Origin: Nonlabens ulvanivorans
GTDB lineage: Bacteria; Bacteroidota; Bacteroidia; Flavobacteriales; Flavobacteriaceae
Reading direction: 5' to 3'
Assembly (NCBI RefSeq): GCF_000732625.1
Contig: NZ_JPJI01000032.1
Coordinates: 620,001-684,000 of the forward strand
DNA length: 64,000 nt
The notes below the pieces were generated by a model. The model did not search any database. It saw nothing but the letters and a program-made list of their open reading frames with translations, and was not told where the DNA came from. A program made the position numbers and the translations under genes. This document shows positions 41 through 58,776 of the stretch, piece after piece (positions within the stretch are counted from its first letter, which is position 1; every line of letters begins with the position of its first letter).

Positions 41-2185
41 TTATAGATTATCTAGTTGATTGTCATTACTACCTAGCGTCCAAAAGAAGCCTACAAAAAT
101 AAATCTGTCTGCAGCCTGACCTATCGATCTACGATCAAAATTGCCCATCTGATCAGGTGTATTACTGTATTGATAATTAAAGATATTTTCTCTTCCTAAG
201 ATATTTGTCACTGATAAGAATACGATTTTTTGTTGATCGATGAGATATGCCCAGTTTAAATTTAAACTTTGAAATGAAGCAGTTTTATCATTAAGAAAAC
301 CTTCTAGGTTAGGATTAGTAAATGTTCTACCACTGGTATAATTGTAGGTAATACCTATTTGTGATTTTAAATCCTCAACCCAATACTTTCCTACCGCGCT
401 GAAGTTATGTGAACTGGCAAAATTAGGCGTTGCAGTTTCTTGAAAATTAAGGTACTTTCTTTCAGTATCTAGATAAGAGTAGCTGATCCAGTAGTCTAAA
501 TTTTTAACAGTTTTCTCATCGCGCCAAAATATATCTAGTCCAGTCGCATAGCCATCTCCATTTACCTCAAAATTACTATCAAATTGTGGTCTGTCAGTAT
601 CATAGGTTAATAGACTAGAATAGTTTTTGTAGTAGGTCTCTGCACGTAGCATGCGACCATCTTTTTGATATAAAAAATTAAGGATATAATGCTCTGCACT
701 TTCTGGTGCTAGTTGCTCATTATATTGAAGAATATTATTTTGAGCCTGCTGATAGAAATGCCCATAAGCAATAGATGCCTGCCAATTCTTAGATACACTT
801 ATGGCAGCGCTCAATCTAGGAGATATAAGTAACTCTTCACTTAAGCCATAATAATCTGCTCTTACACCAGCTTTAAAGGCAAGATCTTTAGATAGAAAAA
901 CTTCAGCCTCTGTAAAAACGCCTGAATTAGAAGAATTAACAGATGATTCAAAAGCGTTATCTTCTATAACAACACCTTCTTTATAGTTGATGAGAAATTG
1001 TTCTACACCGTAGTGGATTTTAAAGTAATTATTGTAACGCTTACGCAATTTTAATTTTGCATGTAATGCATTTTCTCTAGTGTCCACATCTGTACCTGCA
1101 ACGTTAATGTCATTACGATCATGTGCTAGACTAAGACCAGTTTCCATTTTCCAATCATTGTTAAGACGCTGCTCATAGTTTAAATTCCCGTAGTAATTCC
1201 CGTTTTTAAGTCCAAAGAATATCCCATCCTCTATATTAATATCTTCTTGTAGGATACTAAAATTACTATAAGAATAAGCACTGTAAGCCTTAAACATTCC
1301 TTTCTCGAGTTGATGTCTATAGACAGCTTCACCACTAATGGATTCATATGGATCTTCAAACTGATTGTTTTGCGGTATTAACTGATTATAAGGACCTAGG
1401 TTAATATAACTAGCATTAACACTAACACTATTCTTTCCCCATATTTGTGTATTTCCCACGCCACCACCTACACTCATGATTTGTAAGTCTGTTTTTTCCT
1501 CTGTAGGTATATCAGTGGTGTTTAATAATAATACACTCGATAGAGCGTCACCATACTCTGCACTGTAACCACCAGTAGAAAATGATATTCCATCAAATAA
1601 GAAAGGAGAAAACCTTCCTCGTGTAGGTATATTTCCAGTAACTGGCACAAAAGGGCGGAATACTCTACTATTATCAATAAATACTTGAGTTTCCTCACCA
1701 CTTCCACCACGTACAAAAAGACGCCCATCATCTGGATTTGCACTCGTTCCTGGAAGTGTTTGCAATGCACCGACAAAATCACCTACTGCACCAGCCGTGG
1801 TTACTATATCAAGTGGTTTAAGTGCGCTCGCCTTAGAACTGTCTCCAGCACTTAAAGTTCCAGCATTTAGAATCACAGAGTTAAGACTATTTACGCTTTC
1901 GCGGAAGCGTATTTCTACACCATTCAGCTCTCTAACGTCAGATTGCTGGATATAATCTTCATAGCCTATAAAACTGGCGACTAAGGTTACTGTAGAAGTT
2001 TCAGCAGTTTCAAAAGAGAACTTACCATCTATATCGGTCGTGGTGCCATCATAAGTTCCTTTTAAATAAACATTTGCTCCTAGAACGGGTATGTTTTTTT
2101 CATCTATAACCTGACCGCTTACAATGGTCTGTGCTAGACTGGATATTGATAAGGTCATAATTAGTAATAAGAAAAGAGTTTTCAT
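41..2185 (-). CDS. TonB-dependent receptor with carboxypeptidase-like N-terminal domain
   Basis: Outer-membrane receptor for energised import of an unknown ligand. The 714-residue protein starts with a signal peptide ending near SSLAQT. A CarboxypepD_reg-like beta-sandwich follows (about 21-105, VSGQVIDE, DIDGKFSF), then a plug-like region (about 120-230, with LFVRGG) and a barrel-type region rich in aromatic strands that runs to near the end (FIFVGFFWTLG). It is shorter than many SusC proteins and has no SusD partner beside it, so a siderophore- or metal-type receptor is as likely as a glycan one. Residues about 92-96 (RFRES) are encoded by one copy of the repeated GCTTTCGCGAAAGC palindrome, here with a synonymous change. 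Two direct repeats lie 60-90 bp upstream of the start. Confidence 0.85.
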   Translation of the reverse strand: MKTLFLLLIMTLSISSLAQTIVSGQVIDEKNIPVLGANVYLKGTYDGTTTDIDGKFSFETAETSTVTLVASFIGYEDYIQQSDVRELNGVEIRFRESVNSLNSVILNAGTLSAGDSSKASALKPLDIVTTAGAVGDFVGALQTLPGTSANPDDGRLFVRGGSGEETQVFIDNSRVFRPFVPVTGNIPTRGRFSPFLFDGISFSTGGYSAEYGDALSSVLLLNTTDIPTEEKTDLQIMSVGGGVGNTQIWGKNSVSVNASYINLGPYNQLIPQNNQFEDPYESISGEAVYRHQLEKGMFKAYSAYSYSNFSILQEDINIEDGIFFGLKNGNYYGNLNYEQRLNNDWKMETGLSLAHDRNDINVAGTDVDTRENALHAKLKLRKRYNNYFKIHYGVEQFLINYKEGVVIEDNAFESSVNSSNSGVFTEAEVFLSKDLAFKAGVRADYYGLSEELLISPRLSAAISVSKNWQASIAYGHFYQQAQNNILQYNEQLAPESAEHYILNFLYQKDGRMLRAETYYKNYSSLLTYDTDRPQFDSNFEVNGDGYATGLDIFWRDEKTVKNLDYWISYSYLDTERKYLNFQETATPNFASSHNFSAVGKYWVEDLKSQIGITYNYTSGRTFTNPNLEGFLNDKTASFQSLNLNWAYLIDQQKIVFLSVTNILGRENIFNYQYSNTPDQMGNFDRRSIGQAADRFIFVGFFWTLGSNDNQLDNL
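1893..1910. repeat. GCTTTCGCGAAAGC palindrome, copy 1 (one substitution, inside TonB receptor gene)
   Basis: Plus strand ACGCTTTCGCGGAAGCGT. Read on the minus strand it codes RFRES; the single change alters a Phe codon TTT to TTC and is silent. Confidence 0.85.
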
Positions 2186-2244
2186 AGGTCATGGTTTGAT
2201 GATACAAACATCCTATGAAATAAGGCTGATTACTATTCTCTTTT

Positions 2245-2275
2245 ACTGAGTTGTTGATTTTTTAAACTGAGTTGT
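2245..2275. promoter_or_regulatory. tandem ACTGAGTTGT direct repeat upstream of the TonB receptor
   Basis: The decamer ACTGAGTTGT occurs at 2245-2254 and 2266-2275, a start-to-start spacing of 21 bp, or about two helical turns. A third exact copy is at 18-27, just downstream of the receptor gene. The receptor start is at 2185, so the pair sits where an activator would bind. A weak -7-like element (GATGTTTG on the minus strand, plus CAAACATC near 2206-2213) lies between the repeats and the start. That the repeats bind a regulator is inference. Confidence 0.4.
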
Positions 2276-2282
2276 CTAAGTT

Positions 2283-3215: not shown

Positions 3216-3219
3216 GCTA

Positions 3220-3227
3220 CAAAGGTA
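3220..3227 (-). promoter_or_regulatory. -7 promoter element (TACCTTTG), possibly giving a leaderless mRNA
   Basis: On the minus strand TACCTTTG matches the Bacteroidota -7 consensus TAnnTTTG and stops 4 nt before the ATG at 3215. Transcription normally starts a few bases after this element, so the mRNA would have almost no leader. No convincing TTG is seen at the expected -33 spacing. Confidence 0.4.
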
Positions 3228-4991: not shown

Positions 4992-7154
4992 TTACATTTT
5001 TACTCTTGTACTAAGTTCTGGTAGTTCTTCAAATCCCATATTAAACAAGGCAAAACTATAAATATCTGTTTGTTCTTGAATTACTTGTGCGGTTGATTTA
5101 CCTGCACCGTGACCAGCATCAGTCTCTATTCGTATTAAGGTAGGAGCATCTCCAGCTTGTTTAGATTGCAGTTCAGCAGCAAATTTAAACGAGTGTGCTG
5201 GAACGACACGATCATCGTGATCGCCAGTAGTTACCATCGTCGCAGGATAAGAAACACCTTCTTTAATATTGTGTAATGGGGAATATCCTTTAAGGTATTC
5301 AAACATTTCTGGATTATCCTCTGCAGTTCCATAGTCATAAGCCCATCCTGCACCAGCAGTAAACTTATTATATCGCAACATGTCTAACACACCTACTGCT
5401 GGGAATGCTACACCGGCTAGATCTGGTCGCTGTGTCATCGTTGCACCTACTAATAATCCACCGTTAGAACCACCTTGGATGGCAAGATATTTTGTAGAGG
5501 TGTAATCGTTATCTTTTAACCATTCTCCTGCAGCTATAAAATCATCAAACACGTTTTGTTTTTGCATTTTAGTACCAGCGTCATGCCATTTTTTACCATA
5601 TTCACCACCACCGCGTAAATTTGCAACGGCATAAATACCGCCCATTTCCATCCACGCAGCTCTTGAAACTGAAAAACCAGGATTAAGTGAGATGTTGAAA
5701 CCACCATAACCGTAAAGTATTGTTGGGTTTTTACCATCTAGTACTAATCCTTTCTTATGTGAAATAATCATAGGGATTTTAGTTCCATCTTTAGAGGTGT
5801 AAAACACTTGCTTTGATTCATAATCCTCACTATTAAATTGAATCTCTGGTTTGCGATATAGTTTTGAATCACCAGTAGCGATGTCATATAAATAAGTACT
5901 TCCAGGAGTGGTATAATTTGTAAAGCTATAGTAAAGTGTTTTATCTTTCTCTTTAGCGCCAAAACCGCCCACATTTCCTATTCCGGGTAATTTAACTTCT
6001 CTAACAAGAGTACCATCATAATTATACTGTTGTATTTTAGATACGGCATCTACCATATACTCTGCAAAGATGTATCCACCACCTGTAGATGGTGACAGCA
6101 CATTTTCTGTTTCTGGTATCACGTCTACCCAACTTTCTTGAGTAGGATTAGAAAAATCTGTCGATACTATACGTTTATTAGGCGCATTATAATCTGTTAC
6201 CAACCATAACTTAGAACCTTCATTATGCAGTAAATAAGTGTTGGTATCAAAATTATCTAGAACGGTTACTAGTGGTGCATTGGGTTTATTTAATTCTTTC
6301 ATAAACATCTTACCACCATTAGTAGATGTACTTGCAGAAATGACTAAGTAGTTTTGATCATCAGTAACGCCACCACCAACATATCTATACTTTTGATCTG
6401 CTGTACCACCGAAGATAACTTGATCTTCACTCTGTGGTGTACCTAACTTATGATAATACAGTTTATGCTGATCTGTCATAGCACTCAGCTCACTACCGTC
6501 AGGCTTATCATAACTAGAATAGTAGAAACCATCATTACCTTTCCAAGACATTCCAGAAAATTTCACGTCTTTTATGGTATCTCCTACTTGAGTTAAATCT
6601 TTAGTGTTTAAAACGATAATTTTTCTCCAGTCACTTCCACCTTCTGAGATGGCATAAGCAAATAGAGATCCGTCTTTAGTGAAAGAAGTACCACCTAGAG
6701 AAGTCGTTCCATCTTTTGAAAATTGATTAGGATCAAGAAAAACTTCTGCATCTTCCATTTTTCCGTTAGTAGGAAATCGGTATATCACATATTGATTTTG
6801 TAAACCGTCATTTTTATAGAAATAAGAGTAGTCACCTTCTATAAAAGGAGCCCCTATTTTCTCATAGTTCCATAATTCTGTAAGTCGATTTTTAACGCTT
6901 TCGCGAAAGCGTATCTGATCTAAGTAACTATTAGTAACTTGATTTTGTGCTTTAACCCATTCACCGGTCTCTGCACTACGATCATCTTCTAGCCAGCGGT
7001 ATGGATCTGGTACATCTGCACCATGATAATTATCAACATGATCTACTGTTTGTGTGGTAGGATAAGTAATTTCCATTTTTTTTGAATCCTGTTTTTTGTC
7101 TTCACAAGATACCAATGCCATAAGAACAGTGGCTGCGAGAAGTGTTTTTTTCAT
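4992..7154 (-). CDS. prolyl oligopeptidase family (S9A) lipoprotein
   Basis: Serine peptidase predicted to cleave after proline in short peptides, anchored as a lipoprotein (signal MKKTLLAATVLMALVSCEDK). The 720 residues have the S9A layout: N-terminal segment (PYRWLEDD), seven-bladed propeller, and C-terminal alpha/beta-hydrolase domain. The nucleophile motif is GGSNGG, the acid region DHDDRV and the catalytic His lies in DAGHGAG. Residues about 82-86 (RFRES), in the N-terminal helix region, are encoded by a copy of the repeated palindrome at 6895-6912. The gene starts 2 nt after the stop of the upstream T9SS cargo gene, so the two are probably co-transcribed. Confidence 0.92.
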   Translation of the reverse strand: MKKTLLAATVLMALVSCEDKKQDSKKMEITYPTTQTVDHVDNYHGADVPDPYRWLEDDRSAETGEWVKAQNQVTNSYLDQIRFRESVKNRLTELWNYEKIGAPFIEGDYSYFYKNDGLQNQYVIYRFPTNGKMEDAEVFLDPNQFSKDGTTSLGGTSFTKDGSLFAYAISEGGSDWRKIIVLNTKDLTQVGDTIKDVKFSGMSWKGNDGFYYSSYDKPDGSELSAMTDQHKLYYHKLGTPQSEDQVIFGGTADQKYRYVGGGVTDDQNYLVISASTSTNGGKMFMKELNKPNAPLVTVLDNFDTNTYLLHNEGSKLWLVTDYNAPNKRIVSTDFSNPTQESWVDVIPETENVLSPSTGGGYIFAEYMVDAVSKIQQYNYDGTLVREVKLPGIGNVGGFGAKEKDKTLYYSFTNYTTPGSTYLYDIATGDSKLYRKPEIQFNSEDYESKQVFYTSKDGTKIPMIISHKKGLVLDGKNPTILYGYGGFNISLNPGFSVSRAAWMEMGGIYAVANLRGGGEYGKKWHDAGTKMQKQNVFDDFIAAGEWLKDNDYTSTKYLAIQGGSNGGLLVGATMTQRPDLAGVAFPAVGVLDMLRYNKFTAGAGWAYDYGTAEDNPEMFEYLKGYSPLHNIKEGVSYPATMVTTGDHDDRVVPAHSFKFAAELQSKQAGDAPTLIRIETDAGHGAGKSTAQVIQEQTDIYSFALFNMGFEELPELSTRVKM
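6895..6912. repeat. GCTTTCGCGAAAGC palindrome, copy 2 (inside S9A peptidase gene)
   Basis: ACGCTTTCGCGAAAGCGT, perfect 18-bp palindrome, codes RFRES in the peptidase. Confidence 0.95.
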
Positions 7155-13192: not shown

Positions 13193-13210
13193 ACGCTTTC
13201 GCGAAAGCGG
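13193..13210. repeat. GCTTTCGCGAAAGC palindrome, copy 3 (between convergent genes)
   Basis: ACGCTTTCGCGAAAGCGG, 4 bp after the DoxX-like stop and 5 bp before the CHU_C gene stop. Without a T run it is not a normal terminator. Confidence 0.95.
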
Positions 13211-16685: not shown

Positions 16686-16703
16686 ACGCTTTCGCGAAAG
16701 CGT
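16686..16703. repeat. GCTTTCGCGAAAGC palindrome, copy 4 (between divergent genes)
   Basis: ACGCTTTCGCGAAAGCGT in the shared upstream region of the CHU_C gene and rsmI. Confidence 0.95.
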
Positions 16704-17545: not shown

Positions 17546-20500
17546 ATGAAATTGAAATTACTCTTATTATCCATGTTAATGTCTTTAACATGTATAATGA
17601 CACAAGCGCAACCGCCCAATGACACCTTTGCTGGTGCCATACCTATAACAATTCCTGTTCAAGGAGCAACTTCTCCGCAGTTCACGTTGCCATTTACTAC
17701 AGATGGTACAACGGATAGTGGACAGGATAACGTAGGTTGTTCAGCCTCTGGTAATGACCAATTCTTTACATGGACAGCTACAGAGCTTACTTTGACATTT
17801 ACATCTTTAAATCCTGGAAGTCCTGGAATTGCTATTTATGATGCTGTTTCGGGAACTCAGATTAGTTGTTCAAATACGTTCGTAACTAATGCTTTGCAGT
17901 CTGGATGGGCTTTAGGTGATAACCTTGTAATTCAGATCTATGATTTCAATGGCTCTAGTGCAGACGTTGCCTTTGATTTGTTTACAATACCATGTCCGGC
18001 GCCTAGCGGTTTAAGCGAGGTTGAAGGAGCAACATCAGCTGATGTTTCATGGACTAATAACTCTACATCTACAGATACGGTATTAGAATATGGACTAGAC
18101 CCATTGACGGCTGGTACAGGTACAATCATAAATATTCCTGGTGGAGCAACCACGGTTAATATACCAGGTTTATCTCCAGAAACAGATTATGAATACATTT
18201 TAACCCAAGACTGTTCTGCTGCTGGAAACGGAAGCTCAGTTGCTGCTACTGGTTCATTTACTACTACTGCGTTATGTCCATTACCTACATCTTTTGCAGC
18301 TTCTAATATTACTGCTACAACATTAGACTTAAGTTGGGTAAATACTAGTTCTTCTACTGTTTCTTCTGTAGAATATGGAGTTGATGGCTTTACAATAGGA
18401 TCAGGTACAGTGGTTGCTGCTGGTGCTAACAGCGCAAGTATCACTGGATTGATGCCTAATACAGACTATGATTTTTATGTAACACAAGATTGTACTTCAG
18501 CTACAAATGGATTATCTGTTACAGAAGGTCCGTTAAGTGTTGAAACATTATGTGCTGCTTTTGTTCCAGATTATTTAGAAACTTTTGACAGTTTTGTGCC
18601 TAATTGTTGGGAAGAAGCATCTAATGGGGACTTAACGACTGGACCTACGACATTTGGTTCTGGAGATTGGGGATCTGAAGAATTTGCTCATGCAGCAACT
18701 TCTGGTGGTGGTGCTGTAAATGTTAATCTTTTTAATGCAAACACTTCTGACTGGGTTTTAAGTCCATTATTTGACTTATCGGCTGGTGGCTATGAAGTAA
18801 ATCTTGATGTCGCTCTTACTAGTTATAACAGCACTGCTGCTGACGTAATGGGATCTGATGATGAGGTTGTGCTAGCTTATACTTTAGATGGTTCTACATG
18901 GACAGCAATTCAAACTTGGACAGCTGCAAATCAACCTGCAACTGCTGGTGAAACATTTAATGCAGACATTTCTACCATTACAGGTAGTACCGTTCAATTT
19001 GGTATTTATGCTAGTGAAGGAACAGTTGATGATACAGAGGATTATGATTTCCATATCGATAATTTTCAAGTGAGAACAATACCTAGCTGTTTAGATTCTA
19101 ATAATTTACAGTTAGTATCTGCAACTCAAACAACAGCAGATATAACATGGGATAGTAATAATTCTGGTACAGCTGGTAATTTTGAATACTTACTGGATAC
19201 TGCAAATTCTTATCCTACAGGACCAGGCGCGATGGTAGCTCCTACTGGTACTTTAACTGGTGTAACAGGTACGACTTTACCTGTAGCGCAAGCTGGACAA
19301 ATTACAGGATTAATGCCTAGTACAGATTATGATGTATATATAAGAGAAATCTGTACAGGAACTGATACTAGTCCATGGTCTGCCGCACTTGCTTTTACTA
19401 CTGCTTGTGCACCAATAACTGATTTTAATGAAGATTTTGATAGTGTGTCTACACCAGATTTACCTTCTTGTTGGTCATTCTTTGCGACTGATATAGCTAC
19501 GGGAACAGATCCTTATGTAAGAACTTCAACTTCTGCAGACAACTCTGCACCTAACGGTGTCCAGTTATATAGCGGTAGTGCAAACGGTACTACAATTCCT
19601 GCTGATGTTTTATTAATTTCACCAGTGTTAAGTAACCTTAATGCAGGTACGCACAGAGTAAAATTCTTTGCAGATATCACGGTGGCTACTTCTACTGTTG
19701 AAGTTGGTACAATGACTGATCCTAATGATCCTACGACATTTACTGCATTGGGGACATTTTCACCTACAACCACGCATACTGAGTATATTCAGAATTTTGA
19801 TACATATGCAGGTACTGATACCTATATCGCCTTTAAACATGTGTTTGCTTCTACTTTTGATAATTTGTATTTAGACAATATAGTTTGGGAAATGATCCCA
19901 GCATGTCAAGCACCTTTAGATATCACATTATTATCTGCTACAGATACTATGGCAACTATTGGCTGGACTAATAACAACGGATCTACCGTTTCTAGCATCA
20001 CTTATGGTCCTGTTGGTTTTGATCCTACTATGACTGGAACAACAGTTGCTGGTGGAGCAGATACGGCAACCATAACTGGTTTAACAGGTGAGACTAACTA
20101 TGATTTTTATGTAACGCAGGATTGTAGTGCTACAGGTGATGGTTTATCAACTCAATCAGGTCCTCTTAGTATACAAACTCCTTGTGCTGCGATAGCTGCA
20201 CCTTATTTTGTAGACTTTGAAAACTTTTCAGCTGCAACATCTGGTTTTGTAAATGATCAATGTTGGAATGAAATAAGCTCTGGTGCTTATGATTGGGCTA
20301 TAGATAATGCAGGAGGAACAGGTTCTTCTAACACTGGTCCTTCAGGAGCGTTTAGTGGTACTACATTTATGTTTGTTGAAGCAAGTAATGGGTCTAATGG
20401 AGATGTTGCTACTGTGCTTTCAAGAGCTGTAGATTTATCAGCGCTTACTGCACCATCAGTTACTTTCTATTATCATATGTATGGAGCATTTATTACTGAT

Positions 20501-22730: not shown

Positions 22731-22748
22731 ACGCTTTCGCGAAAGCGG
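22731..22748. repeat. GCTTTCGCGAAAGC palindrome, copy 5 (after terminator, convergent genes)
   Basis: ACGCTTTCGCGAAAGCGG, 8 bp beyond the terminator at 22694-22722. Confidence 0.95.
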
Positions 22749-23831: not shown

Positions 23832-23996
23832 ATATTTTAAATAAAAATAGAACTTGACTCAATTTTGATTATGAATCATTAAAAATCAGGTAGATAGACG
23901 ATAATTTAGGTGCTTTAACAAAAAATTAAGGCTTGTAGGTGTGGAACTACAAAAATGATATACCTTAATAGCTTGATAAATTATAAATCAACCAAA

Positions 23997-29025: not shown

Positions 29026-29043
29026 ACGCTTTCGCGAAAGCAG
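29026..29043. repeat. GCTTTCGCGAAAGC palindrome, copy 6 (after terminator, before recA)
   Basis: ACGCTTTCGCGAAAGCAG, 10 bp beyond the terminator at 28991-29015; 14-bp core is perfect. Confidence 0.95.
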
Positions 29044-33011: not shown

Positions 33012-33755
33012 CTATTTAAGATCATTTTCTAGAGATGATAAGATGATTGTTCTCACGCTTTCGCGAAAGCGTATTTTATCTTCCTTTAAGTTCATACCAG
33101 CAGTATCAATAGCTTTATGAGTAAGAGCGCGCATTTTTCCCGGTCCGCCATAGAAGAAATGGAAAGGAAAACGCTGCTTATTATCAAATAAAGTAACTGG
33201 TAATACGGGAATCTCATGCTCGATAGCAAGTCTGAAAGCGCCGTCTTTAAACGAGTCTAATGTAATACTCATATCATCAGGTACGCCACCTTCTGGAAAA
33301 ATACAAATACCGACACCAGTAGAAAGTCTAGCGCGTGCTCTATCAAAAACGGCTTTACGACTTCTGGGATTATTGCGATCTACTAGGATACAAGTGCGCT
33401 TATAAAAAAAACCGAAAATAGGAATCTTGGCCAGTTCAGCTTTACCTACAAAAACAAATGGATTTTTAGAAACCAGTAACATGATCATAATATCTGTCAT
33501 GCTGGTGTGATTTGCTACCAGCATATAACTCTGTCCTTTTTGCATAGGCTCTTCACGTTTAATAATGGGCCAGAAACCCATACCGTAAATAATTATAGCT
33601 GCCCAAAATCGAGCGATAGCAAAAAAGATATGATAGGTTTTTTCTGAAATAGTAAAAACAACCAGTATAGGAAATAGTATAATGATAGGAACTCCCATCA
33701 GTATATAGAACCATACACGGTATAAAGGCATCAATATGTAGCGCAACCATTTCAA
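33012..33755 (-). CDS. plsC: 1-acyl-sn-glycerol-3-phosphate acyltransferase
   Basis: Acylates lysophosphatidic acid in membrane phospholipid synthesis. The 247 residues have N-terminal membrane helices (about 8-60), the catalytic HX4D motif NHTSMTD (His 83, Asp 88) and FPEGG (153-157). The C-terminus (RFRES at about 228-232, then VRTIILSSLEN) contains a copy of the repeated palindrome at 33055-33072, 13 codons before the stop. Another LPLAT-superfamily specificity, such as lipid A or ornithine-lipid acylation, cannot be excluded. Confidence 0.88.
   Translation of the reverse strand: MKWLRYILMPLYRVWFYILMGVPIIILFPILVVFTISEKTYHIFFAIARFWAAIIIYGMGFWPIIKREEPMQKGQSYMLVANHTSMTDIMIMLLVSKNPFVFVGKAELAKIPIFGFFYKRTCILVDRNNPRSRKAVFDRARARLSTGVGICIFPEGGVPDDMSITLDSFKDGAFRLAIEHEIPVLPVTLFDNKQRFPFHFFYGGPGKMRALTHKAIDTAGMNLKEDKIRFRESVRTIILSSLENDLK
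33055..33072. repeat. GCTTTCGCGAAAGC palindrome, copy 7 (inside plsC)
   Basis: ACGCTTTCGCGAAAGCGT, codes RFRES near the PlsC C-terminus. Confidence 0.95.
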
Positions 33756-39750: not shown

Positions 39751-40398
39751 CTAAATAGAAGTAAAAATAAACGGATTAGGATCTAGAATCATATTTTCAT
39801 AACTCGCTAACTCTTCTTGTGCTGCAACACCAGGGAAATCGCCACGATAATCTCTCATATTTGTCATTACCTGAAAGTGTAGATGTGGTGAGTAACCACC
39901 ATTTTCTTGTGGAGTTCCCAGAGTTGCTATTTTCTCGCTTTCGCGAAAGCGGACTCCAACTTCCCAACCTGCCATATCACTAATGGATAAGTGTCCATAT
40001 AGGCTGTAGATTTTCTGGCCATTCCAGTCATGTTCTAAAATTATGGTAGGACCGTAATTGCCAGCATCATCATTATGTGCAAAAGAGTGAACCACACCAT
40101 CCATTACTGCATGAACACTACTGCCGGCTGGTGCCCATAAATCGATTCCCATGTGAACATCACGAGTAATTCCAGATTGAAAACGTGCGTTTTTGCGATA
40201 TAAGGCGCGTTGTTCTAGATAACCACCATGGGCAACATAAGATTGATGTTCATCTCGTTTTTCTGCTAGGTATTTTTCAAATACTGCGATATCACTCACA
40301 TCATTTTTATCCCAAAATGAATTCTCAACAGATAAATTAATGTGGAAATAACCTTTGCTACCTACCGATGGATCAATAAGATGTCTTTTAATAATCAT
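39751..40398 (-). CDS. M23 family peptidase-like protein without signal peptide
   Basis: 215 residues from ATG 40398 (MIIKRHLIDPSVG). The M23 domain covers about 95-195, with HMGIDLWAPAG (His and Asp ligands) and HLHFQV (HxH), so the zinc site is intact. No signal peptide is visible from this start, and an upstream in-frame start would add an unrelated hydrophobic stretch; location is therefore uncertain. Residues about 150-154 (RFRES) are encoded by the palindrome copy at 39935-39952, inside the catalytic domain between the two ligand motifs. Peptidoglycan turnover is the likely role. Confidence 0.75.
   Translation of the reverse strand: MIIKRHLIDPSVGSKGYFHINLSVENSFWDKNDVSDIAVFEKYLAEKRDEHQSYVAHGGYLEQRALYRKNARFQSGITRDVHMGIDLWAPAGSSVHAVMDGVVHSFAHNDDAGNYGPTIILEHDWNGQKIYSLYGHLSISDMAGWEVGVRFRESEKIATLGTPQENGGYSPHLHFQVMTNMRDYRGDFPGVAAQEELASYENMILDPNPFIFTSI
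39935..39952. repeat. GCTTTCGCGAAAGC palindrome, copy 8 (inside M23 gene)
   Basis: TCGCTTTCGCGAAAGCGG, codes RFRES in the M23 catalytic domain. Confidence 0.95.
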
Positions 40399-40472
40399 GC
40401 TGCACAGAATTTTACTGCAATTTATGGAAATGATCAGAAAACACGACCGCTTATTTTGAGTAGGTTTTGCTA

Positions 40473-40503
40473 TTGATAACAATGAATTATTACTGTATTT
40501 TTA
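40473..40503 (+). promoter_or_regulatory. promoter of scoA (TTG-N20-TATTTTTA)
   Basis: TTG 40473-40475 and TATTTTTA 40496-40503 with 20-bp spacing, 17 nt before the ATG at 40521. Same layout and spacing as the recA promoter. Confidence 0.5.
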
Positions 40504-42418: not shown

Positions 42419-43462
42419 CTACACCTCATCAAAATTAACTTTCACCTTAGCACTCGTCGGGTAAGCTTGACATGCTAGCGAAAGTCCTTCGGCGATTTCA
42501 GTATCGGTAAGGATGGCATTTTTGGCCATTTGAGCGCTGCCTTCTTCTATTTGACAAATACAAGAACTACAAATTCCGCCCTGACAGCTGTATGGAGCAT
42601 CGATATCATTTTTAAGCATGACATCTAGCATGTTATCACTACGCTTCATTGTGAACGTGTGCTCTTCATCATCTAGGATTACGGTAACCTCAGTTAAATG
42701 TGAGTCTTCTGTGATTTCTATTTTATTCTCTTTAGTAGAAAAAAGCTCAAAGTGTATGTTTTCTTTAGCTATAATCTCTTTTTCTACAAGATTATCGGTC
42801 GTCATGCTGATCATGTCTTCTGGGCCACATAAATAAGCTTTTGCAAAAGCATAATCTGTACAATCCTGCTTCAAGAAAAAGTTTAAATTTCCTTTTGTGA
42901 CGCGACCAAAAAGTTCGCCATCACGTTCTTCTCTAGAGAAACTATAACGTACGATAAAACGATCGCCATATTGATCTTGAAGATCATTAATTTGTTCAAA
43001 ATAAATAGTTTGAGAAATACTTTGATTCCCATAAATAAGAGCAAACTTACTATCCGGTTCTGTTTCCAGTACCGTTTTTATAATAGAGATAATAGGTGTG
43101 ATACCACTACCAGCAGCGACACCTAGGTAGGTTTGTGCATTTGTAGATTTTTCGTGAACAAAAAGCCCTTCTGGTGCAGCAACATCTAGTTGATCTCCAG
43201 CACGCAATGTCATGGCATAGTTAGAGAAGACTCCATTTTCTACGGCTTTAACAACGACACTCCAGTGATTCTCGTGTGGTGCACTAGAAAGTGAATAAGC
43301 ACGTCGTACTTCTTTACCATCTATAGTTGCTTTTAAGGTTAAATACTGACCAGATTGATAATTAAAATCTGAAACTAGTTCTTGTGGTATGTCAAATCTA
43401 ATTTCTACGGCCTGTGGTGTGACCTTAGTAACTTGTTGTATAGTGAGTTTATGAAATTCCAT
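42419..43462 (-). CDS. FAD/[2Fe-2S] reductase, PaaE/ferredoxin-NADP reductase type
   Basis: Electron-transfer flavoprotein passing electrons from NAD(P)H to a partner oxygenase or similar. 347 residues: FAD domain with RAYSLSS, NAD(P) domain with GVAAGSGITPIISI and CGPEDMI, and a C-terminal plant-type [2Fe-2S] domain with CQGGICSSC and a fourth Cys in LACQAYP. This matches PaaE (phenylacetyl-CoA epoxidase reductase), but no paaABCD genes are nearby, so the partner is unknown and no gene symbol is given. Confidence 0.88.
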   Translation of the reverse strand: MEFHKLTIQQVTKVTPQAVEIRFDIPQELVSDFNYQSGQYLTLKATIDGKEVRRAYSLSSAPHENHWSVVVKAVENGVFSNYAMTLRAGDQLDVAAPEGLFVHEKSTNAQTYLGVAAGSGITPIISIIKTVLETEPDSKFALIYGNQSISQTIYFEQINDLQDQYGDRFIVRYSFSREERDGELFGRVTKGNLNFFLKQDCTDYAFAKAYLCGPEDMISMTTDNLVEKEIIAKENIHFELFSTKENKIEITEDSHLTEVTVILDDEEHTFTMKRSDNMLDVMLKNDIDAPYSCQGGICSSCICQIEEGSAQMAKNAILTDTEIAEGLSLACQAYPTSAKVKVNFDEV

Positions 43463-45065: not shown

Positions 45066-45083
45066 ACGCTTTCGCGAAAGCGT
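45066..45083. repeat. GCTTTCGCGAAAGC palindrome, copy 9 (between DUF5687 and ABC ATPase genes)
   Basis: ACGCTTTCGCGAAAGCGT, 25 bp after one stop and 31 bp before the next start in a likely operon. Confidence 0.95.
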
Positions 45084-46493: not shown

Positions 46494-49109
46494 TTGAGAA
46501 CCACACTTATTAACATTTTAACGTTTTTGCTTCTACTAGTCATAGTCACTAGTTGTAGTCGTAAAAAAAACTCATTTGTAAGTCGCAATCTACACGCGGT
46601 TGGAACTGAGTATAACGTACTTTATAATGGTGATCTCGCCTTGCAAGCTGGATTAGATGAACTAGAAGCAACATATAACGAGGACTATTGGGATATCTTA
46701 CCGGTAGAACGTATGCAATTAAAGCAAGAGGTATTTCTTCCAGGACAGAAACCGGCAAATCCTAATTTTGAAAGAGCCGAAGAGAAAGCTGTAAAAGCAG
46801 TTCAGAAACACTCGATTTTTGTTAATGAAGAAGAGTTCAATCCGCAAGTTGATGATGCTTACTTATTGCTAGGTAAAGCTAGGTACTACGACCAGAGATT
46901 TGTCCCAGCTTTAGAGGCATTTAATTACATCTTGCAATTCATGCCAGAAAGTGATCAACTTAATCAGGCAAAAATATGGCGTGAGCGCACTAATATGCGC
47001 TTAGAGAATAACGAAACTGCCATCATTAACCTTACTAAATTACTTAAAGAAGAAAGCGAGATTATAGAAAATGAAGATCTAGCAAATGCAAATGCGACAC
47101 TTTCTCAAGCCTTTTTAAACTTAGAACAAATAGATAGCGCATTGATTTACATGAATCGTGCAGCAAATCTCACTAAGAATAAAGAAACCATCGCTCGCTA
47201 TAAATTTATAGCAGGACAGCTTTTTGCAAAGGCAGGACAGCGAGACAGTGCCTTTGTAAAGTTTGATCAAATCATAGAAATGCATCGCAAGGTGCCACGT
47301 CGCTATTATGTGCATTCATTTATTGAAAAAATAAAACTCTTTGATAATAGTACTGATAGTGAAGTATTATTGTTAGAAACTTTAAATGACCTAGAAGAAA
47401 ATCGTGAGAATCGCCCGTGGTTAGACCATATTTATTCTCGCAAGGCGATATACTTTGAGAATAGAGATTCACTCAACGATGCGGTAACCTATTATAATCT
47501 ATCACTAAGGGCAAAAGGTGGAACAGATCAATACTTGCGAGGTAATAATTATAGTGCATTAGGTAAAATAAGTTTCAACCAGAATAAATATGCTGCAGCA
47601 GGTAAATATTATGACAGTGCCATGGTTAGTTATGTTGAGCGCAGCCCAGAGCATCGATTGGTAAAAAAGAAAAGAGATAATCTAGAAGATGTTATTCTTT
47701 ATGAAGAAAGGCGTCGCAGCGCAGACAGTATTTTTAATGTGTTGGACATGTCTACTGATCAACAAATCGCTTATTATAACGAGTACATTGCAAAATTAAA
47801 AGCAGAGGAAGAGCGACTAGCAAAACTTGCTGAAGTTGAAGCATTAAAAGAAGCTCAAAATCAAAATGCATTTCAAACCATACAAAATAATAAGACGACT
47901 AAGAGAGGTAACGCAGGACCGGCTTTTGGCCCTATAGGCGGTGCACCTTCAACACCTACACTTTCAGGTACTCCTACATTTTACTTCTATAATCCACAAA
48001 CCGTTGCCCGTGGAAAGCAAGATTTCCGTAGAAAATGGGGGAAACGTAAATTAGAAAATAACTGGAGACGCAAGAATAAAAAAGATGATGGTGGTGGCGA
48101 GATTGTTATAGAAGAAGATGAAGCACTCGTAGAAGAAGAGGTTAGGCCAGAGTTTACTCCAGAGTTTTATATCGATCAATTACCAGAAGGGATGAGTGTG
48201 CTAGATAGTATTGCAAGCGCTCGTAACTTTGCATATTACCAGCTAGGTGTTATATATAAGGAGAAATTTAAGCGCAATGATTTAGCAATAAGTCGTTTAG
48301 AAAATCTAATTGCTTTTGAGCCTGCTGAAAAACTGTTGCTTCCAGGATTATACAATTTATACCTTATATATAATGAGAGTGGCGCTTTCGCGAAAGCGGA
48401 TACATACAAAAGCCGTATTATTAATGAATTCCCAGATACTAGATATGCACAGATTTTATTGAATCCAGACGCGAAAATAGAAGATAATGCTAGTCCTAGT
48501 GCTGTATATAAAAGACTATACAAAGAATACGAGAAAGGCAATTATGAAATCGTGGTCACTAATGTAGAAAGATATGTTACCTTATTTAACGGTGATCCTA
48601 TTGTACCTAGATTAGAATTATTGAAAGCTTTTGCCGCAGGAAGATTGTATGGTTTCAAAGAGTACAAACGAGGAATCGATTTTGTCGCTCTTAACTTTCC
48701 TAATACTGAAGTTGGGAAAAGTGCACAGAAGTTAGTATTAGAGGCAGAAAAACTTAAAATAGCTGAGGCTTTTATGCCAGAGCAAGGTCTTTCTGATTTT
48801 AAATTAATATATCGCATTGAGAAAACTAATTATCAAAAGTTAGAACAACTTAAAGATCAATTAGAAAAGGCCATTGAACAAGAGAAATATGGATTTACAG
48901 TGTCTGTAGATGTGTATAATCCACAAGAAAATTTAATTGTTGTTCATGGATTAACTTCAAAACTAGGTAGTCGTGGATTAGGAGACTTTATGGCTAATCC
49001 TAGCAATGGTTTTAATATCAGCGACACAGCAATACCTATTGCAACAGAAAATTATAAAATCATACAGGTGTATAAAAGCCTGGATGATTATGAAAAAGAA
49101 ATGCTTTAA
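46494..49109 (+). CDS. PorW/SprE-like T9SS TPR lipoprotein
   Basis: 871-residue lipoprotein: start TTG 46494 behind AAAAAAGGAG, signal ending LLVIVTSCSRKK. TPR-type helical repeats occupy about 75-410 and 560-740. The central segment FYFYNPQTVARGKQDFRRK and WGKRKLENNW is one I recognise from SprE/PorW, a periplasmic lipoprotein needed for type IX secretion and gliding. Residues about 631-635 (AFAKA) are encoded by the palindrome copy at 48382-48399. It is followed after 11 bp by bactofilin and then the ATP synthase genes. It would support secretion of the T9SS cargo encoded earlier in the window. Confidence 0.85.
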   Translation: MRTTLINILTFLLLLVIVTSCSRKKNSFVSRNLHAVGTEYNVLYNGDLALQAGLDELEATYNEDYWDILPVERMQLKQEVFLPGQKPANPNFERAEEKAVKAVQKHSIFVNEEEFNPQVDDAYLLLGKARYYDQRFVPALEAFNYILQFMPESDQLNQAKIWRERTNMRLENNETAIINLTKLLKEESEIIENEDLANANATLSQAFLNLEQIDSALIYMNRAANLTKNKETIARYKFIAGQLFAKAGQRDSAFVKFDQIIEMHRKVPRRYYVHSFIEKIKLFDNSTDSEVLLLETLNDLEENRENRPWLDHIYSRKAIYFENRDSLNDAVTYYNLSLRAKGGTDQYLRGNNYSALGKISFNQNKYAAAGKYYDSAMVSYVERSPEHRLVKKKRDNLEDVILYEERRRSADSIFNVLDMSTDQQIAYYNEYIAKLKAEEERLAKLAEVEALKEAQNQNAFQTIQNNKTTKRGNAGPAFGPIGGAPSTPTLSGTPTFYFYNPQTVARGKQDFRRKWGKRKLENNWRRKNKKDDGGGEIVIEEDEALVEEEVRPEFTPEFYIDQLPEGMSVLDSIASARNFAYYQLGVIYKEKFKRNDLAISRLENLIAFEPAEKLLLPGLYNLYLIYNESGAFAKADTYKSRIINEFPDTRYAQILLNPDAKIEDNASPSAVYKRLYKEYEKGNYEIVVTNVERYVTLFNGDPIVPRLELLKAFAAGRLYGFKEYKRGIDFVALNFPNTEVGKSAQKLVLEAEKLKIAEAFMPEQGLSDFKLIYRIEKTNYQKLEQLKDQLEKAIEQEKYGFTVSVDVYNPQENLIVVHGLTSKLGSRGLGDFMANPSNGFNISDTAIPIATENYKIIQVYKSLDDYEKEML
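48382..48399. repeat. GCTTTCGCGAAAGC palindrome, copy 10 (inside PorW-like gene)
   Basis: GCGCTTTCGCGAAAGCGG, read in the other frame as AFAKA in a TPR helix. Confidence 0.95.
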
Positions 49110-50046: not shown

Positions 50047-51237
50047 ATGTATAGAGCGTACTTTAAAATAGCTTTTTTTGCTTTGATCTTTACAGCTTTT
50101 GCGACAGCACAAGCTCAAGAACATAATGGTGATTATGCCTTTGATGATGAAATAGAATCAGATGGCGGTAAAGTGAATACAAAAGAAGAAATCGATTCTT
50201 ATATCGATCATCACTTAAAAGATTCACATGACTTCCATTTATTCTCATATTCAGATGATGCTGGAGTAAGAAAACATGTTGGTTTTTCTTTACCTGTTAT
50301 TGTTTGGTCTAGTGAAGGTTTAAAATTCTTTATGTCTTCAAGGTTTCATCACGATGATGATGGAAAAGTATTAGTAAAAGCTGGCGACGCCACATTTACA
50401 AAACTGCACAGTAAGATATATGAGTTAGATAGTGGTGCTACTGCAATTAATTTTGACGCAGATCATCACCCTACTAATGCTCATAGAGTATTTGATATGT
50501 CTATTACAAAGTCTGTTTTTGGACTTCTATTAATAGGTCTGTTAATGCTACTAGTTTTTGGTGCATTAGCAAAGCAGTACAAGACTAAAAAGATCCCTAC
50601 TGGATTCGGTCGTGTATTAGAGCCGTTAGTATTATATGTAAGAGATGAGATTGCGCGTCCTAATATAGGTGAGACTAAGTATAGAAAATTCATGGGGTAT
50701 TTATTAACCGTGTTTTTCTTAATCTGGATCAGTAACCTTTTAGGGTTAACACCATTTGGGTTTAACATCACGGGACAAATAGCGGTTACCGTATGTCTTG
50801 CTTTATTTACATTTATTATTGTACAATTTAGTGGTAATAAAGATTACTGGATGCACATTTTCTGGATGCCAGGCGTTCCAGTATTAATGAAAATAGCTTT
50901 AATACCTATTGAGTTAATAGGTCTGCTTACAAAGCCATTCTCACTTCTTGTACGTTTATTTGCAAACATTACAGCTGGTCACGTTGTAGTCATGGGTCTT
51001 ATTGCCTTAATGATTACGCTTAAAGCACAGTTCGGTATAGTAGGTTCGACAGGACTTTCTATATTCCTTACCTTGTTCTTATCAGTTATAGAATTATTAG
51101 TAGCCTTTTTACAGGCATTTATCTTTACAATGTTATCTGCCCTATTTATAGGGATGGCAGTTGCAGAGCATGATCATCACGAGCATGCTGGCACTGAAGA
51201 GGACGACATCGACGAGGTAAGAGAACGTTTTATTTAA
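50047..51237 (+). CDS. atpB: ATP synthase F0 subunit a
   Basis: Proton-channel subunit of F1Fo ATP synthase. 396 residues from ATG 50047, preceded by AAGGTG at suitable distance; GTG 50038 lies inside this ribosome-binding stretch and is rejected. The protein begins with a signal-like sequence (MYRAYFKIAFFALIF, ending ATAQAQ) and a His/Asp-rich region to about 150, an N-terminal extension as in other Bacteroidota. The conserved channel part contains the essential Arg in LLVRLFANITAGH. The C-terminus is again His/Glu-rich (EHDHHEHAGTEEDD). Confidence 0.95.
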   Translation: MYRAYFKIAFFALIFTAFATAQAQEHNGDYAFDDEIESDGGKVNTKEEIDSYIDHHLKDSHDFHLFSYSDDAGVRKHVGFSLPVIVWSSEGLKFFMSSRFHHDDDGKVLVKAGDATFTKLHSKIYELDSGATAINFDADHHPTNAHRVFDMSITKSVFGLLLIGLLMLLVFGALAKQYKTKKIPTGFGRVLEPLVLYVRDEIARPNIGETKYRKFMGYLLTVFFLIWISNLLGLTPFGFNITGQIAVTVCLALFTFIIVQFSGNKDYWMHIFWMPGVPVLMKIALIPIELIGLLTKPFSLLVRLFANITAGHVVVMGLIALMITLKAQFGIVGSTGLSIFLTLFLSVIELLVAFLQAFIFTMLSALFIGMAVAEHDHHEHAGTEEDDIDEVRERFI

Positions 51238-52614: not shown

Positions 52615-52632
52615 CCGCTTTCGCGAAAGCGT
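52615..52632. repeat. GCTTTCGCGAAAGC palindrome, copy 11 (between atpH and atpA)
   Basis: CCGCTTTCGCGAAAGCGT within the atp operon, 18 bp after the atpH stop. Confidence 0.95.
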
Positions 52633-52689: not shown

Positions 52690-54264
52690 ATGGCAGAAGT
52701 AAATCCAGCAGAAGTATCTGCAATACTTAAGCAACAATTATCAGGTTTTGATGCAACTGCATCACTTGATGAAGTGGGAACCGTACTTACAGTAGGTGAT
52801 GGTATCGCACGTGTTTACGGTCTTTCTAACGCCCAATATGGTGAACTAGTTGCGTTTACATCTGGGATTGAAGGTATCGTTCTTAACCTAGAAGAAGATA
52901 ATGTAGGTGTGGTACTTTTAGGCCCATCAACAGGTATCGCTGAAGGTGACACTGTGAAACGTACACAACGTATCGCATCTCTTAAAGTAGGTGAAGGTAT
53001 TGTAGGTCGTGTAGTAAATACATTAGGTGAACCTATCGATGGTAAAGGTGCTATTGAAGGTGACTTATATGAAATGCCTCTAGAGCGCAAAGCTCCTGGA
53101 GTTGTTTTCCGTCAACCAGTAACTGAGCCATTACAGACAGGTATTAAGTCTATCGACGCGATGATTCCTGTAGGTCGTGGACAACGTGAACTTGTAATCG
53201 GTGACCGTCAAACTGGTAAAACTACTGTTTGTATTGACACGATTCTTAACCAAAAAGAATTTTACGATGCTGGTGAGCCAGTATATTGTATATATGTAGC
53301 TATCGGACAAAAAGCGTCTACAGTTGCAAACATTGCAAAAGTACTTGAAGAAAAAGGTGCTCTTGCTTATACTACAATTGTTGCAGCAAATGCATCTGAC
53401 CCAGCAGCAATGCAGGTTTATGCACCATTTGCTGGAGCATCGATAGGTGAGTACTTCCGTGATACTGGTCGTCCTGCACTTATTATTTATGATGATTTAT
53501 CTAAGCAAGCTGTTGCTTACCGTGAGATCTCTCTACTTTTACGTCGTCCACCAGGACGTGAGGCGTATCCTGGAGATGTATTCTTCCTTCACTCAAGATT
53601 GTTGGAGCGTGCAGCAAAGGTTATTGCAGATGATGAAATTGCAAAAAACATGAACGACCTGCCAGATAGTTTGAAACCTATCGTTAAAGGTGGTGGATCT
53701 CTTACTGCACTTCCTATTATTGAAACACAAGCTGGTGATGTATCGGCTTATATTCCTACTAACGTAATTTCGATTACAGATGGACAGATTTTCCTAGATG
53801 GTGATTTATTCAACTCTGGTGTACGTCCTGCTATTAACGTTGGTATTTCAGTATCACGTGTTGGTGGATCTGCACAGATTAAGTCTATGAAAAAAGTATC
53901 TGGTACTTTAAAATTAGACCAGGCAGCTTTCCGTGAACTTGAAGCATTTGCAAAGTTCGGTTCTGACCTTGATGCAACTACACTTGGTGTTATTGAAAAA
54001 GGAAAGAGAAACGTTGAGATATTAAAGCAAGCAGAAAATGATCCTTACACTGTTGAAGATCAGATTGCAATTATCTATGCAGGTTCTAAGAACTTGTTGA
54101 AAAACGTTCCTGTTGAAAAAGTAAAAGAATTTGAAAGAGACTTTATAGAATTACTTAATGCAAAGCATAGAGGAACTCTAGATACTCTTAAAGCTGGAAA
54201 ACTTACTGATGAAGTGATTGATACACTTACAGCAGTAGCAAAAGATCTTTCTAGTAGATACTAA
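52690..54264 (+). CDS. atpA: ATP synthase F1 subunit alpha
   Basis: Non-catalytic nucleotide-binding subunit. 524 residues: beta-barrel N-terminal domain (DGIARVYGL), P-loop GDRQTGKT near residue 175, and the arginine-finger region in [11 protein letters not shown]. Full length. The 93-bp spacer from atpH contains a palindrome copy (52615-52632). Confidence 0.97.
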
Positions 54265-57253: not shown

Positions 57254-57313
57254 ATCCATTCCAGTAATTTCTCATTGGCACCACATTTGAACAACAATCC
57301 TTAAATTACACCC

Positions 57314-57808: not shown

Positions 57809-57833
57809 GTCATTTCACTCAATCAAATATAGT

Positions 57834-57860
57834 AGGCGCTCATTATAGCTATGAGCGCCT
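57834..57860 (+). terminator. terminator after the 57314 lipoprotein gene
   Basis: 10-bp stem AGGCGCTCAT (57834-57843) and ATGAGCGCCT (57851-57860) followed by five T. Confidence 0.85.
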
Positions 57861-57899
57861 TTTTTATGCGCTTAAGTTTGACTCATAAAATTTACAACT

Positions 57900-58730
57900 A
57901 TGAAAAATCTATTGAGAATAACAATTATCGCTTTGACATTTTCGGGACTTGCAAATGCTCAAGGAGCAGAAATTGCTAGAGAAATCAGAAACTACATGAA
58001 CGCAGAGACCAGTGACGAGATGATAGAAGTAAAAGATAAAGCAGGTAAAACACACTATGTGCGCAGTGCTGCAACAACTACTGCACATCATATAGGTGGA
58101 CAGAATACTTCTACAAATACAGTCGTTTTTGACGCCTTTAATGCTCATCCAGAGTGGCAAAACATGAATGTAGTCGTAGACTGGACAGGCAGCATGTACA
58201 GTTATGTAGGTCAGGTAGTGCGATGGCACCATGTCAATAAAGACAAACAATTGATGAATAGCATGGTGCTTTTTAATGATGGCGATGATAAACTGAGGCA
58301 AGGACGTAGTGGTAAAACAATAGGTAGTACAGGTGGTATTTATTTTCCTAACCATTTAGATATTGACAGTTTTTTAAATACTGTAGCAACAGCAGTAGAT
58401 AATGGCGGCGGCGGCGATGGACCAGAAAATGATGTTGAGGCCATCATAGCAGCCCAAGCACATGACCAATCTGGTAGTGACTTTGTTCTCATTGCAGATG
58501 CTACTAGTATTAGAGATATTTCTCTAGTACATCAAATTAAACGACCAGTACATGTCATTCTTTGTGACCATGTTTCACCAGATTACATCACGCTTGCCCG
58601 TACTACTGGCGGCAGCATTACATGGCCAGGTGGTTATACAGACTATAGCCAGGTGCAATGCACTACACATCATGTAACCGTTTGCAATCATCACCATAGT
58701 CACGATATAGCGTGTCATGTTCATGAGTAA
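57900..58730 (+). CDS. secreted VWA-like domain protein with His/Cys-rich C-terminal tail
   Basis: 276 residues with signal peptide (MKNLLRITIIALTFSGLANA). The main domain resembles von Willebrand A: MIDAS-like DWTGSM (Asp 94, Thr 96, Ser 98), the GGGGDGPEND loop (about 169-178) and a second Asp strand FVLIADATS (about 195-203). The C-terminal 24 residues (253-276) contain eight His and three Cys (HHVTVCNHHHSHDIACHVHE), a probable metal-binding tail. No partner genes nearby. Copper, zinc or nickel binding is an inference. Confidence 0.7.
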   Translation: MKNLLRITIIALTFSGLANAQGAEIAREIRNYMNAETSDEMIEVKDKAGKTHYVRSAATTTAHHIGGQNTSTNTVVFDAFNAHPEWQNMNVVVDWTGSMYSYVGQVVRWHHVNKDKQLMNSMVLFNDGDDKLRQGRSGKTIGSTGGIYFPNHLDIDSFLNTVATAVDNGGGGDGPENDVEAIIAAQAHDQSGSDFVLIADATSIRDISLVHQIKRPVHVILCDHVSPDYITLARTTGGSITWPGGYTDYSQVQCTTHHVTVCNHHHSHDIACHVHE

Positions 58731-58758
58731 ATTATAGTAATAAGCAATTATTTTAAAT

Positions 58759-58776
58759 ACGCTTTCGCGAAAGCGT
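58759..58776. repeat. GCTTTCGCGAAAGC palindrome, copy 12 (upstream of flippase promoter)
   Basis: ACGCTTTCGCGAAAGCGT, ends 4 bp before the TTG of the flippase promoter. Confidence 0.95.

Follow-up and report, generated by a model that had tools for sequence, protein, structure and literature searches.

Dispersed words in bacterial genomes often mark a machine, as Chi does for RecBCD, the uptake signal sequences (USS) and DNA uptake sequences (DUS) for transformation, and parS and matS for chromosome organisation. We assessed how such systems compare with GCTTTCGCGAAAGC, a 14-bp palindrome that recurs throughout a 64-kb window (the whole stretch of DNA analysed; NZ_JPJI01000032.1, positions 620,001 to 684,000) of the Nonlabens ulvanivorans genome GCF_000732625.1, hereafter the focal genome. 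The sites of ParB (parS), MatP (matS), Noc (Noc-binding sites, NBS) and SlmA (SlmA-binding sites, SBS) are likewise chromosomal palindromes of similar length read by dimers, but they number in the tens and are region-biased, whereas the present word occurs hundreds of times chromosome-wide. Chi (GCTGGTGG) is a short asymmetric word that acts in one direction, unlike the palindrome described here.

Chi resembles the word in being over-represented, at about one copy per 4.6 kb in Escherichia coli. The USS of Pasteurellaceae and DUS of Neisseriaceae share with it a copy number of hundreds to thousands, lineage specificity, placement both in and between genes and, in Haemophilus influenzae, AT-rich flanks. 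The word differs from them in being a palindrome with symmetric flanks, in the mutual exclusion of its copies rather than close pairing, in its presence in phages and a moved island, and in that a type IV pilus ATPase was not found above cut-off in genomes rich in it. HIP1 (GCGATCGC) is also a highly iterated, dispersed palindrome of restricted taxonomic range; the present word is longer, is regularly spaced, has inner words that are hardly enriched, and is not accompanied by either of two tested methyltransferase families in all genomes rich in it. In Sulfolobales, SegB reads a scattered 13-bp palindrome (TCTAGA-S-TCTAGA) that is mostly intragenic and tied to chromosome organisation (PMC12284271), but its 39 chromatin immunoprecipitation (ChIP) peaks lie mainly near segAB, compared with 566 evenly spaced copies of the word. 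The LexA motifs of Bacteroidetes (GGA-N5-TCC and CTAA-N5-TTAG) are different (PMC8565304). For each of uptake sequences, HIP1, Noc/ParB sites, Chi and terminators, at least one defining trait was tested and is missing from the word, although it works like a dispersed recognition word. We tentatively suggest that it may well be the binding site of a symmetric chromosome-servicing protein, repeated in a roughly even lattice and most likely serving nucleoid architecture.

The word and its surrounding element

The observation is confirmed: the word is real and reaches beyond the window. Within the window we found 11 exact copies, one copy with a single mismatch and two places with two mismatches; dinucleotide shuffles of the window gave a mean of 0.11 matches at up to two mismatches (largest 1), compared with the 14 observed. 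All 12 coordinates given in the original prediction are correct, the 14-mer beginning two bases past each quoted 18-bp start, and 11 of the copies are perfect palindromes as claimed, the first having one mismatch (Table 1). Its description of a GC-rich word in AT-rich, coding and non-coding DNA also held (window GC content 36%; seven of the 12 copies intergenic and five in genes, with a gene list picked from open reading frames, ORFs). The window lies on a 1.66-Mb contig of a 3.21-Mb assembly of 45 contigs. In 464 kb of the focal genome we counted 85 exact copies, along with 14 that carry one mismatch and nine that carry two; an order-2 Markov model of the masked sequence predicts ~0.0006 exact copies per 464 kb. 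The whole genome holds 566 exact copies and none of a control word (GCTTTCGCGAAAGC read backwards, likewise palindromic and of unchanged composition). Neither outcome named in the original prediction as refuting it was seen: the genome-wide count exceeds the Markov expectation, and the copies are not confined to the window.

Other genomes of the genus are similarly rich. Calling a genome loaded when it has hundreds of copies, all 23 genomes of the focal genus examined (the focal genome and 22 others; a genus-wide search likewise gave 23) are loaded, with 288–857 copies each, while among the 36 genomes outside the genus in a search of 59 relatives (focal genome included) one carried six copies. 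In a sample of the family (397 genomes, 237 genera) the word occurred at least once in 80 genomes, six of which are loaded: four of the focal genus, plus G234 (408 copies) and G250 (857 copies). The remaining 74 carry 1–19 copies. Loaded genera are therefore three of the 237 sampled, with one sampled genome per genus outside the focal one. A phylum sample of 392 genomes included 24 with the word, none of which, the focal genome apart, has more than six copies. The word was absent from all of the best 80 of 589 loci from named relatives (4–21 kb long), and in the 76 of these loci of at least 9 kb no other palindromic 12- or 14-mer reached three copies, A/T-only and low-complexity words being excluded; only two 10-mers did so, AACTTAAGTT (L029) and TTTTGCAAAA (L069). 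A 34-nt probe matched records in named collections only partially and over short lengths, in phages (three records) and Rhizobium plasmids (15 records). Judging from titles and the opening of abstracts, we found no description of GCTTTCGCGAAAGC or its inner 12- and 10-mers in the open-access literature searched, and no account of the word in that literature on flavobacteria, on Dokdonia/Nonlabens repeats or on nucleoid-linked spaced palindromes; the excerpt of PMC3940949 contains nothing on the loaded genera. Within the open-access literature searched, the word is undescribed among dispersed recognition words.

The word, most often in the form CGCTTTCGCGAAAGCG, sits at the centre of a dyad-symmetric element; with the flanks in which a signal is seen, this extends over ~80 bp. 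The wider symmetric context noted in the original prediction is real, if looser than claimed: in the focal genome the next outer base is C in ~91% of half-sites and T stands at -3 in ~67%. Across 190 sites from two genomes, T and G are enriched and C depleted 5' of the core on both sides, out to about -33 and then fading. A set of 121 intergenic sites taken alone shows G at -15/-16, T at -13, -12, -10, -7, -4 and -3 (81%), A at -5 and C at -1 (94%). At 51 coding sites, whichever strand the gene occupies, coding-strand C is 0.10 on the 5' side and G 0.115 on the 3' side, compared with 0.158 and 0.202 across all genes. The flanks of G250 sites match the focal pattern. Left and right flanks pair in ~0.2–0.5 of sites at most positions past the outer C/G and more often at a few (no null was computed), which gives no sign of a long hairpin.

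We related the 85 copies in 464 kb to genes defined by greedy ORF calls. Although only ~9% of bases are intergenic, 33 of the 85 copies are, a four-fold excess; the other 52 lie in genes and use all three reading frames (encoding AFAKA in 29 cases, RFRES in 13 and LSRK in 10). The word is selected as DNA, given its use of three frames and the symmetric T/G-rich flanks of ~30 bp that it has on each side regardless of gene strand. Among the 33 intergenic copies there was no preference for any gap type (20 co-directional, 10 divergent and three convergent, near the share of such DNA). Given the coding share and this orientation-neutral intergenic placement, neither terminators nor promoters account for the word.

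Spacing, conservation and mobile DNA

Copies are spaced far more regularly than chance predicts. Along 400 contiguous kb of the focal genome, 74 sites are separated by a mean of 5.3 kb (minimum 1.3 kb, maximum 12.3 kb) with a coefficient of variation (CV) of 0.41, whereas 10,000 random placements had a mean CV of 0.98 (lowest 0.61) and 5,000 placements preserving the coding/intergenic mix a mean of 1.02 (lowest 0.72). Only one of the 73 gaps is shorter than 2 kb, against 23.7 expected. In the one-contig chromosome of G020, 20 evenly placed 20-kb stretches contain 105 sites, at one to nine per stretch (the minimum being in the first, of GC 0.50), and the 85 gaps measured in 19 of the 20 have a CV of 0.45 (0.90 for random placement). 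For G250, with 60 sites in 260 kb, the CV is 0.69 compared with 0.98 (null fraction 0.0008), and two gaps fall below 1 kb where 12.2 are expected; in G234 none of 42 gaps does (6.4 expected). Copies are thus shown, by their positions, to avoid lying within ~1–2 kb of one another. Imperfect copies tend to stand where exact ones are missing: those with one or two mismatches occupy four of the five gaps over 9.5 kb in the focal genome, all three over 9 kb in G250 and three of the four over 14 kb in G234, and for the 13 one-mismatch copies in the focal 400 kb the median distance to the closest exact copy is 2.9 kb, compared with 1.4 kb for randomly chosen points. Including such near-copies lowers the CV in G250 from 0.690 to 0.554.

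Positions are also conserved. From 86 sites in the window and in the atp region of 19 genomes of the genus we obtained 732 aligned pairs (not independent, and counted in both directions), of which 589 have the exact word and 143 do not; under a strict count the aligned 14-mers are identical in 581. In alignments of at most 75% identity, 349 of 462 site 14-mers are identical, compared with 233 of 4263 control 14-mers (5.5%), and over 325 pairs core bases have an identity of 0.94 and flank bases one of 0.69. The position of the word is retained where the surrounding DNA has diverged by up to ~35%. Of the lost sites, some are one change away from the word, and others fall in gapped or unrelated sequence. 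When site peptides were compared with outgroups, 21 of 42 coding segments had usable matches, most of them at a single orthologous site. Gaps fell at the site in 872 of 1283 alignments, so gain by substitution and gain by small insertion were not told apart.

Beyond the loaded genomes, the word occurs in transferred DNA. A survey of 15 stretches in eight unloaded genomes, a subset of the 74 low-copy genomes (G131, G259, G122, G380, G245, G145, G033 and G390; stretches L277–L290 and L263), revealed one related family of islands, common to many flavobacterial genera and bearing the word at recurring places. Islands are 71–97% alike where alignable over 400 bases, the exact word is kept in 110 of 187 aligned pairs (58 of 112 in the 70–80% identity band), and a pair of sites 933 bp apart was found repeatedly (in G145, G122, G259 and G131 of the family sample, and also in G204 of the phylum sample). 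Nine proteins from three of the stretches indicate copper/heavy-metal resistance (CusA/CzcA, CusB-like, CopA-type and Cd-type P-ATPases, multicopper oxidase). The idea that word clusters in unloaded genera are conjugative elements was dropped in view of these resistance genes. The island is likely a mobile element, and the simplest reading would be that it evolved in loaded hosts and then moved out, in which case its copies of the word may mark passage through such hosts. More generally, and whatever its role, the word is a natural barcode, a copy in an unloaded-genus genome suggesting, as with this island, that the DNA passed through a loaded host.

The word is also present in at least 120 viral-contig stretches, 43 of the 120 listed having less than 45% GC. 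We tested proteins from 11 loci of seven viral contigs picked for having several copies. In five contigs they included proteins of phage structure or packaging (terminase, major head protein, head protease, tape measure, baseplate, Mu-type portal; in one contig also a transposase), and in two they did not. Judged by these proteins, genuine tailed phages evidently carry the word. One word-bearing viral contig (2841145138_000001, L162) encodes a type III-like restriction enzyme and a DNA methyltransferase. By contrast with the ~6.6 copies expected from the genome average, the Rep3 plasmid of the loaded genome G008 (G008:C2, 29,179 bp) has none over its full length. This plasmid (L371, L407) encodes a protein with a CAP12/Pycsar-type TIR domain.

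Candidate functions

The original prediction compared the word with HIP1 and uptake sequences and, as an inference, had it recognised by a protein for chromosome organisation, methylation or DNA uptake; this is partly supported. A chromosome-wide function at the DNA level is supported by the regular spacing, the positional conservation and the orientation-independent flanks; HIP1-style methylation and uptake of the known type IV pilus kind are not (see below). In the architectural scheme that we favour, the element would be bound sequence-specifically by a protein in the form of a two-fold symmetric dimer or a higher oligomer, which would contact or bend the T/G-rich flanks. Bound sites would form a roughly even lattice, one per 3–6 kb, for a chromosome-scale job, most likely nucleoid architecture through the anchoring, bridging or bounding of kilobase-sized domains. 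Each site would serve a few kilobases, so a second site nearby would add nothing, and a near-copy could partly replace a missing site. Architecture is our first choice because of the exclusion between sites, the behaviour of near-copies as members of the lattice in two of the three genera, the participation of phages and the island, and the one free plasmid without sites. If the role is architectural, the spacing of nucleoid domains would be a sequence-encoded and editable quantity.

Candidate readers were sought among the ParB, TetR and HU families. Each of 18 genomes (eight loaded, 10 not) has one ParB of ~300 amino acids (aa), the only chromosomal copy per genome examined, unlike a system with a dedicated Noc/ParB paralogue, and comparison by eye revealed no change in it common to all loaded genomes yet missing from unloaded ones. 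Further ParB-like proteins of 595–598 aa (L310, L316–L320) occur only in G018 (two), G019, G033, G188 and G245; these are not common to loaded genomes, which speaks against a dedicated ParB/Noc paralogue as the reader. In G033 and G245 the gene for this larger protein lies within ~25 kb of copies of the word. TetR searches gave 54 matches in 12 genomes, and 30 of these with loci were clustered; two of the three G020 proteins cluster with unloaded genera and the third has no locus, and among the 30 there was no loaded-only cluster containing G020. HU gave no candidate either: loaded genomes show no extra paralogue, two PF00216 matches being present in each of 11 genomes, loaded or not.

Several results weigh against an architectural lattice. 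The ParB, TetR and HU searches yielded nothing specific to loaded genomes and no binding protein. Regularity is weaker in G250 than in the focal genus, and in G234 (43 sites in 260 kb) the CV of 0.82 is not significantly below the random value of 0.97 (null fraction 0.125); the flanks of G234 sites are also weak, with the outer C down to 0.63. Adding the 13 one-mismatch copies to the focal sites slightly raises the CV, from 0.410 to 0.436, although this rise is smaller than in 99.8% of random additions (mean 0.519), and neither in G234 nor in the window, where up to two mismatches were allowed, does the near-copy effect reach significance. The plasmid argument depends on a single plasmid, and a 14,236-bp contig of the focal genome (L384, G000:C8) has no site, so the lattice can be interrupted. 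Finally, even spacing and conservation can also stem from uptake-driven or Chi-like selection. The site-free 14-kb contig (30% GC) encodes a reverse transcriptase, a 737-aa C5-methyltransferase frame and a 1235-aa DUF3584 protein, and it may be a defence island.

A broader claim, which we hold with less confidence than the binding-site proposal itself, is that Flavobacteriaceae might possess an undescribed chromosome-organising system. A symmetric complex would act at hundreds of ~80-bp elements tiling the chromosome every 3–6 kb, with selection on position keeping the spacing even, in three genera that do not group together, and the elements would enter phages and mobile cargo but not the one free plasmid. 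Among bacteria, no other system would come as close to a spaced array of sites for architectural proteins. In a FastTree phylogeny of two ATP synthase genes (atpA and atpG, the latter named by gene order; 114 of 116 loci), G250 is sister to Leeuwenhoekiella and G188, G234 is nearby and the focal genus is elsewhere; G188 (nine copies) and its genus-mate G372 (six copies) are not loaded. The loaded genera, all three scattered in this tree, do not seem to form a single clade, although a two-gene tree of this kind can mislead and no support values were read. The system would then have been gained more than once, moved, or been lost widely.

Next in rank come uptake and Chi-like roles, from which many of the same features would be expected. 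As an uptake signal, the word would mark self DNA for natural transformation and spread by biased uptake, its spacing reflecting the length of the fragments taken up; we consider this unlikely, if the strongest of the alternatives. Known uptake words are dispersed, lineage-specific and found within and between genes (PMC1939737), and they are evenly spaced according to Karlin et al., as cited in PMC1939737. Those of H. influenzae have AT-tract flanks that aid uptake (PMC7811141), and the spacing of neisserial uptake words fits the length of conversion fragments (PMC2397512). The scatter of loaded genera in the atpA and atpG tree is also compatible with this role. However, the word is perfectly palindromic, whereas uptake words are non-palindromic and less even than a compaction role needs (PMC1939737); 23% of the USS in H. 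influenzae 86-028NP have a neighbour less than 100 bp away (PMC7811141), whereas the present sites repel; and uptake words are seldom found in horizontally transferred parts of neisserial genomes (PMC2397512), whereas the word is present in phages and the island. The PilB/GspE ATPase (PF00437) exceeded the cut-off in none of nine loaded genomes, which gave weak sub-threshold matches only (a pilin receptor was not searched for), while the unloaded G372 has one. An uptake model, which might invoke another machine, has to manage without type IV pili and with a palindrome.

Rather improbable, though still ahead of the remaining possibilities, is a Chi-like or road-block site at which an end-processing enzyme that degrades DNA is halted or switched by the word, perhaps via a bound protein. 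One site every few kilobases would protect the chromosome and integrated elements, and the palindrome would act from both sides. The strict dyad of 14–16 bp suggests instead a dimer reading duplex DNA, which a Chi-like model has to account for, and known Chi sites are short and one-directional. On the other side, the T/G-rich 5' flank on each strand would be laid bare in a 3' single-stranded tail, tailed phages bear the word, and a circular plasmid without sites is compatible. The density also resembles that of Chi in E. coli (1008 copies in ~4.64 Mb; PMC1939737). If the word is a signal for uptake or repair, the machine that it hints at would be one that lacks type IV pili. It would also be the first palindromic one known to us.

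We regard the operator of an ordinary global transcription factor as very unlikely. A strict palindrome with a four-fold intergenic excess would suit one, but the 52 copies inside genes, the regular spacing and the irrelevance of gene orientation would not. Scarcely more credible, and slightly less so than an operator, is a HIP1-like word maintained by a DNA methyltransferase that reads the inner sequence. Like HIP1, the word is a palindrome with a CpG-rich centre and a high copy number across the genus, but its recognition sequence is longer than a usual methyltransferase site, and its inner words are hardly enriched outside the 14-mer in the 464 kb (TCGCGA, 40 observed against 29 expected; TTCGCGAA, five against three), though TTTCGCGAAA occurs four times against 0.4 and the 12-mer once against 0.01. 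The C5-methyltransferase family PF00145 is present in nine of 15 loaded genomes and absent from six, and the N6/N4 family PF01555 is present in seven and absent from eight; G008 and G010, both loaded, have neither, other methyltransferase families not having been searched. HIP1 itself accompanies orphan methyltransferases (PMC4390886).

Least probable of all is a mobile palindromic repeat, transcription terminator or RNA hairpin family: the word is a short inverted repeat, intergenic in 33 of 85 cases, and some coding alignments are gapped by a few residues at the site, but the stem has no following T-run, flank polarity is opposite (T before, A after), convergent gene ends are not enriched, the 52 genic copies use three frames, and positions are common across the genus, in agreement with the earlier view that this is not a terminator family.

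Sites in the window

The individual sites and their contexts are given in Table 1.

Table 1. Copies and near-copies of the word in the 64-kb window, with window coordinates.
Feature	Position	Context
Site 1, one mismatch (GCTTTCGCGGAAGC)	1895..1908	Inside ORF 41-2185 (-), TonB-dependent receptor by Pfam
Site 2, exact	6897..6910	Inside ORF 4992-7154 (-), prolyl oligopeptidase by Pfam
Site 3, exact	13195..13208	25-bp gap, convergent ORFs either side
Site 4, exact	16688..16701	Intergenic, divergent ORFs
Site 5, exact	22733..22746	Intergenic, convergent ORFs
Site 6, exact	29028..29041	Intergenic, co-directional ORFs
Site 7, exact	33057..33070	Inside ORF 33012-33755 (-)
Site 8, exact	39937..39950	Inside ORF 39751-40482 (-)
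Two-mismatch relative GCTTTTGCAAAAGC, also palindromic	42837..42850	
Site 9, exact	45068..45081	Intergenic, co-directional ORFs
Site 10, exact	48384..48397	Inside ORF 46494-49109 (+); AFAKA, in a poorly conserved protein stretch
Two-mismatch relative GCTTTTGCGACAGC	50095..50108	G016 and G001 counterparts (identical word) align with an exact G020 site
Site 11, exact	52617..52630	Short gap directly upstream of ATP synthase alpha/beta family gene 52690-54264 (taken as atpA)
Site 12, exact	58761..58774	Intergenic, co-directional ORFs

The palindromic relative GCTTTTGCAAAAGC may be a chance match. It differs from the word by a C-to-T and a G-to-A change, at both outer CpG positions, and its inner 12-mer occurs five times in the 464 kb. 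The window also contains two very large neighbouring ORFs, at 17546-22675 and 23955-28970, of 1709 and 1671 aa.

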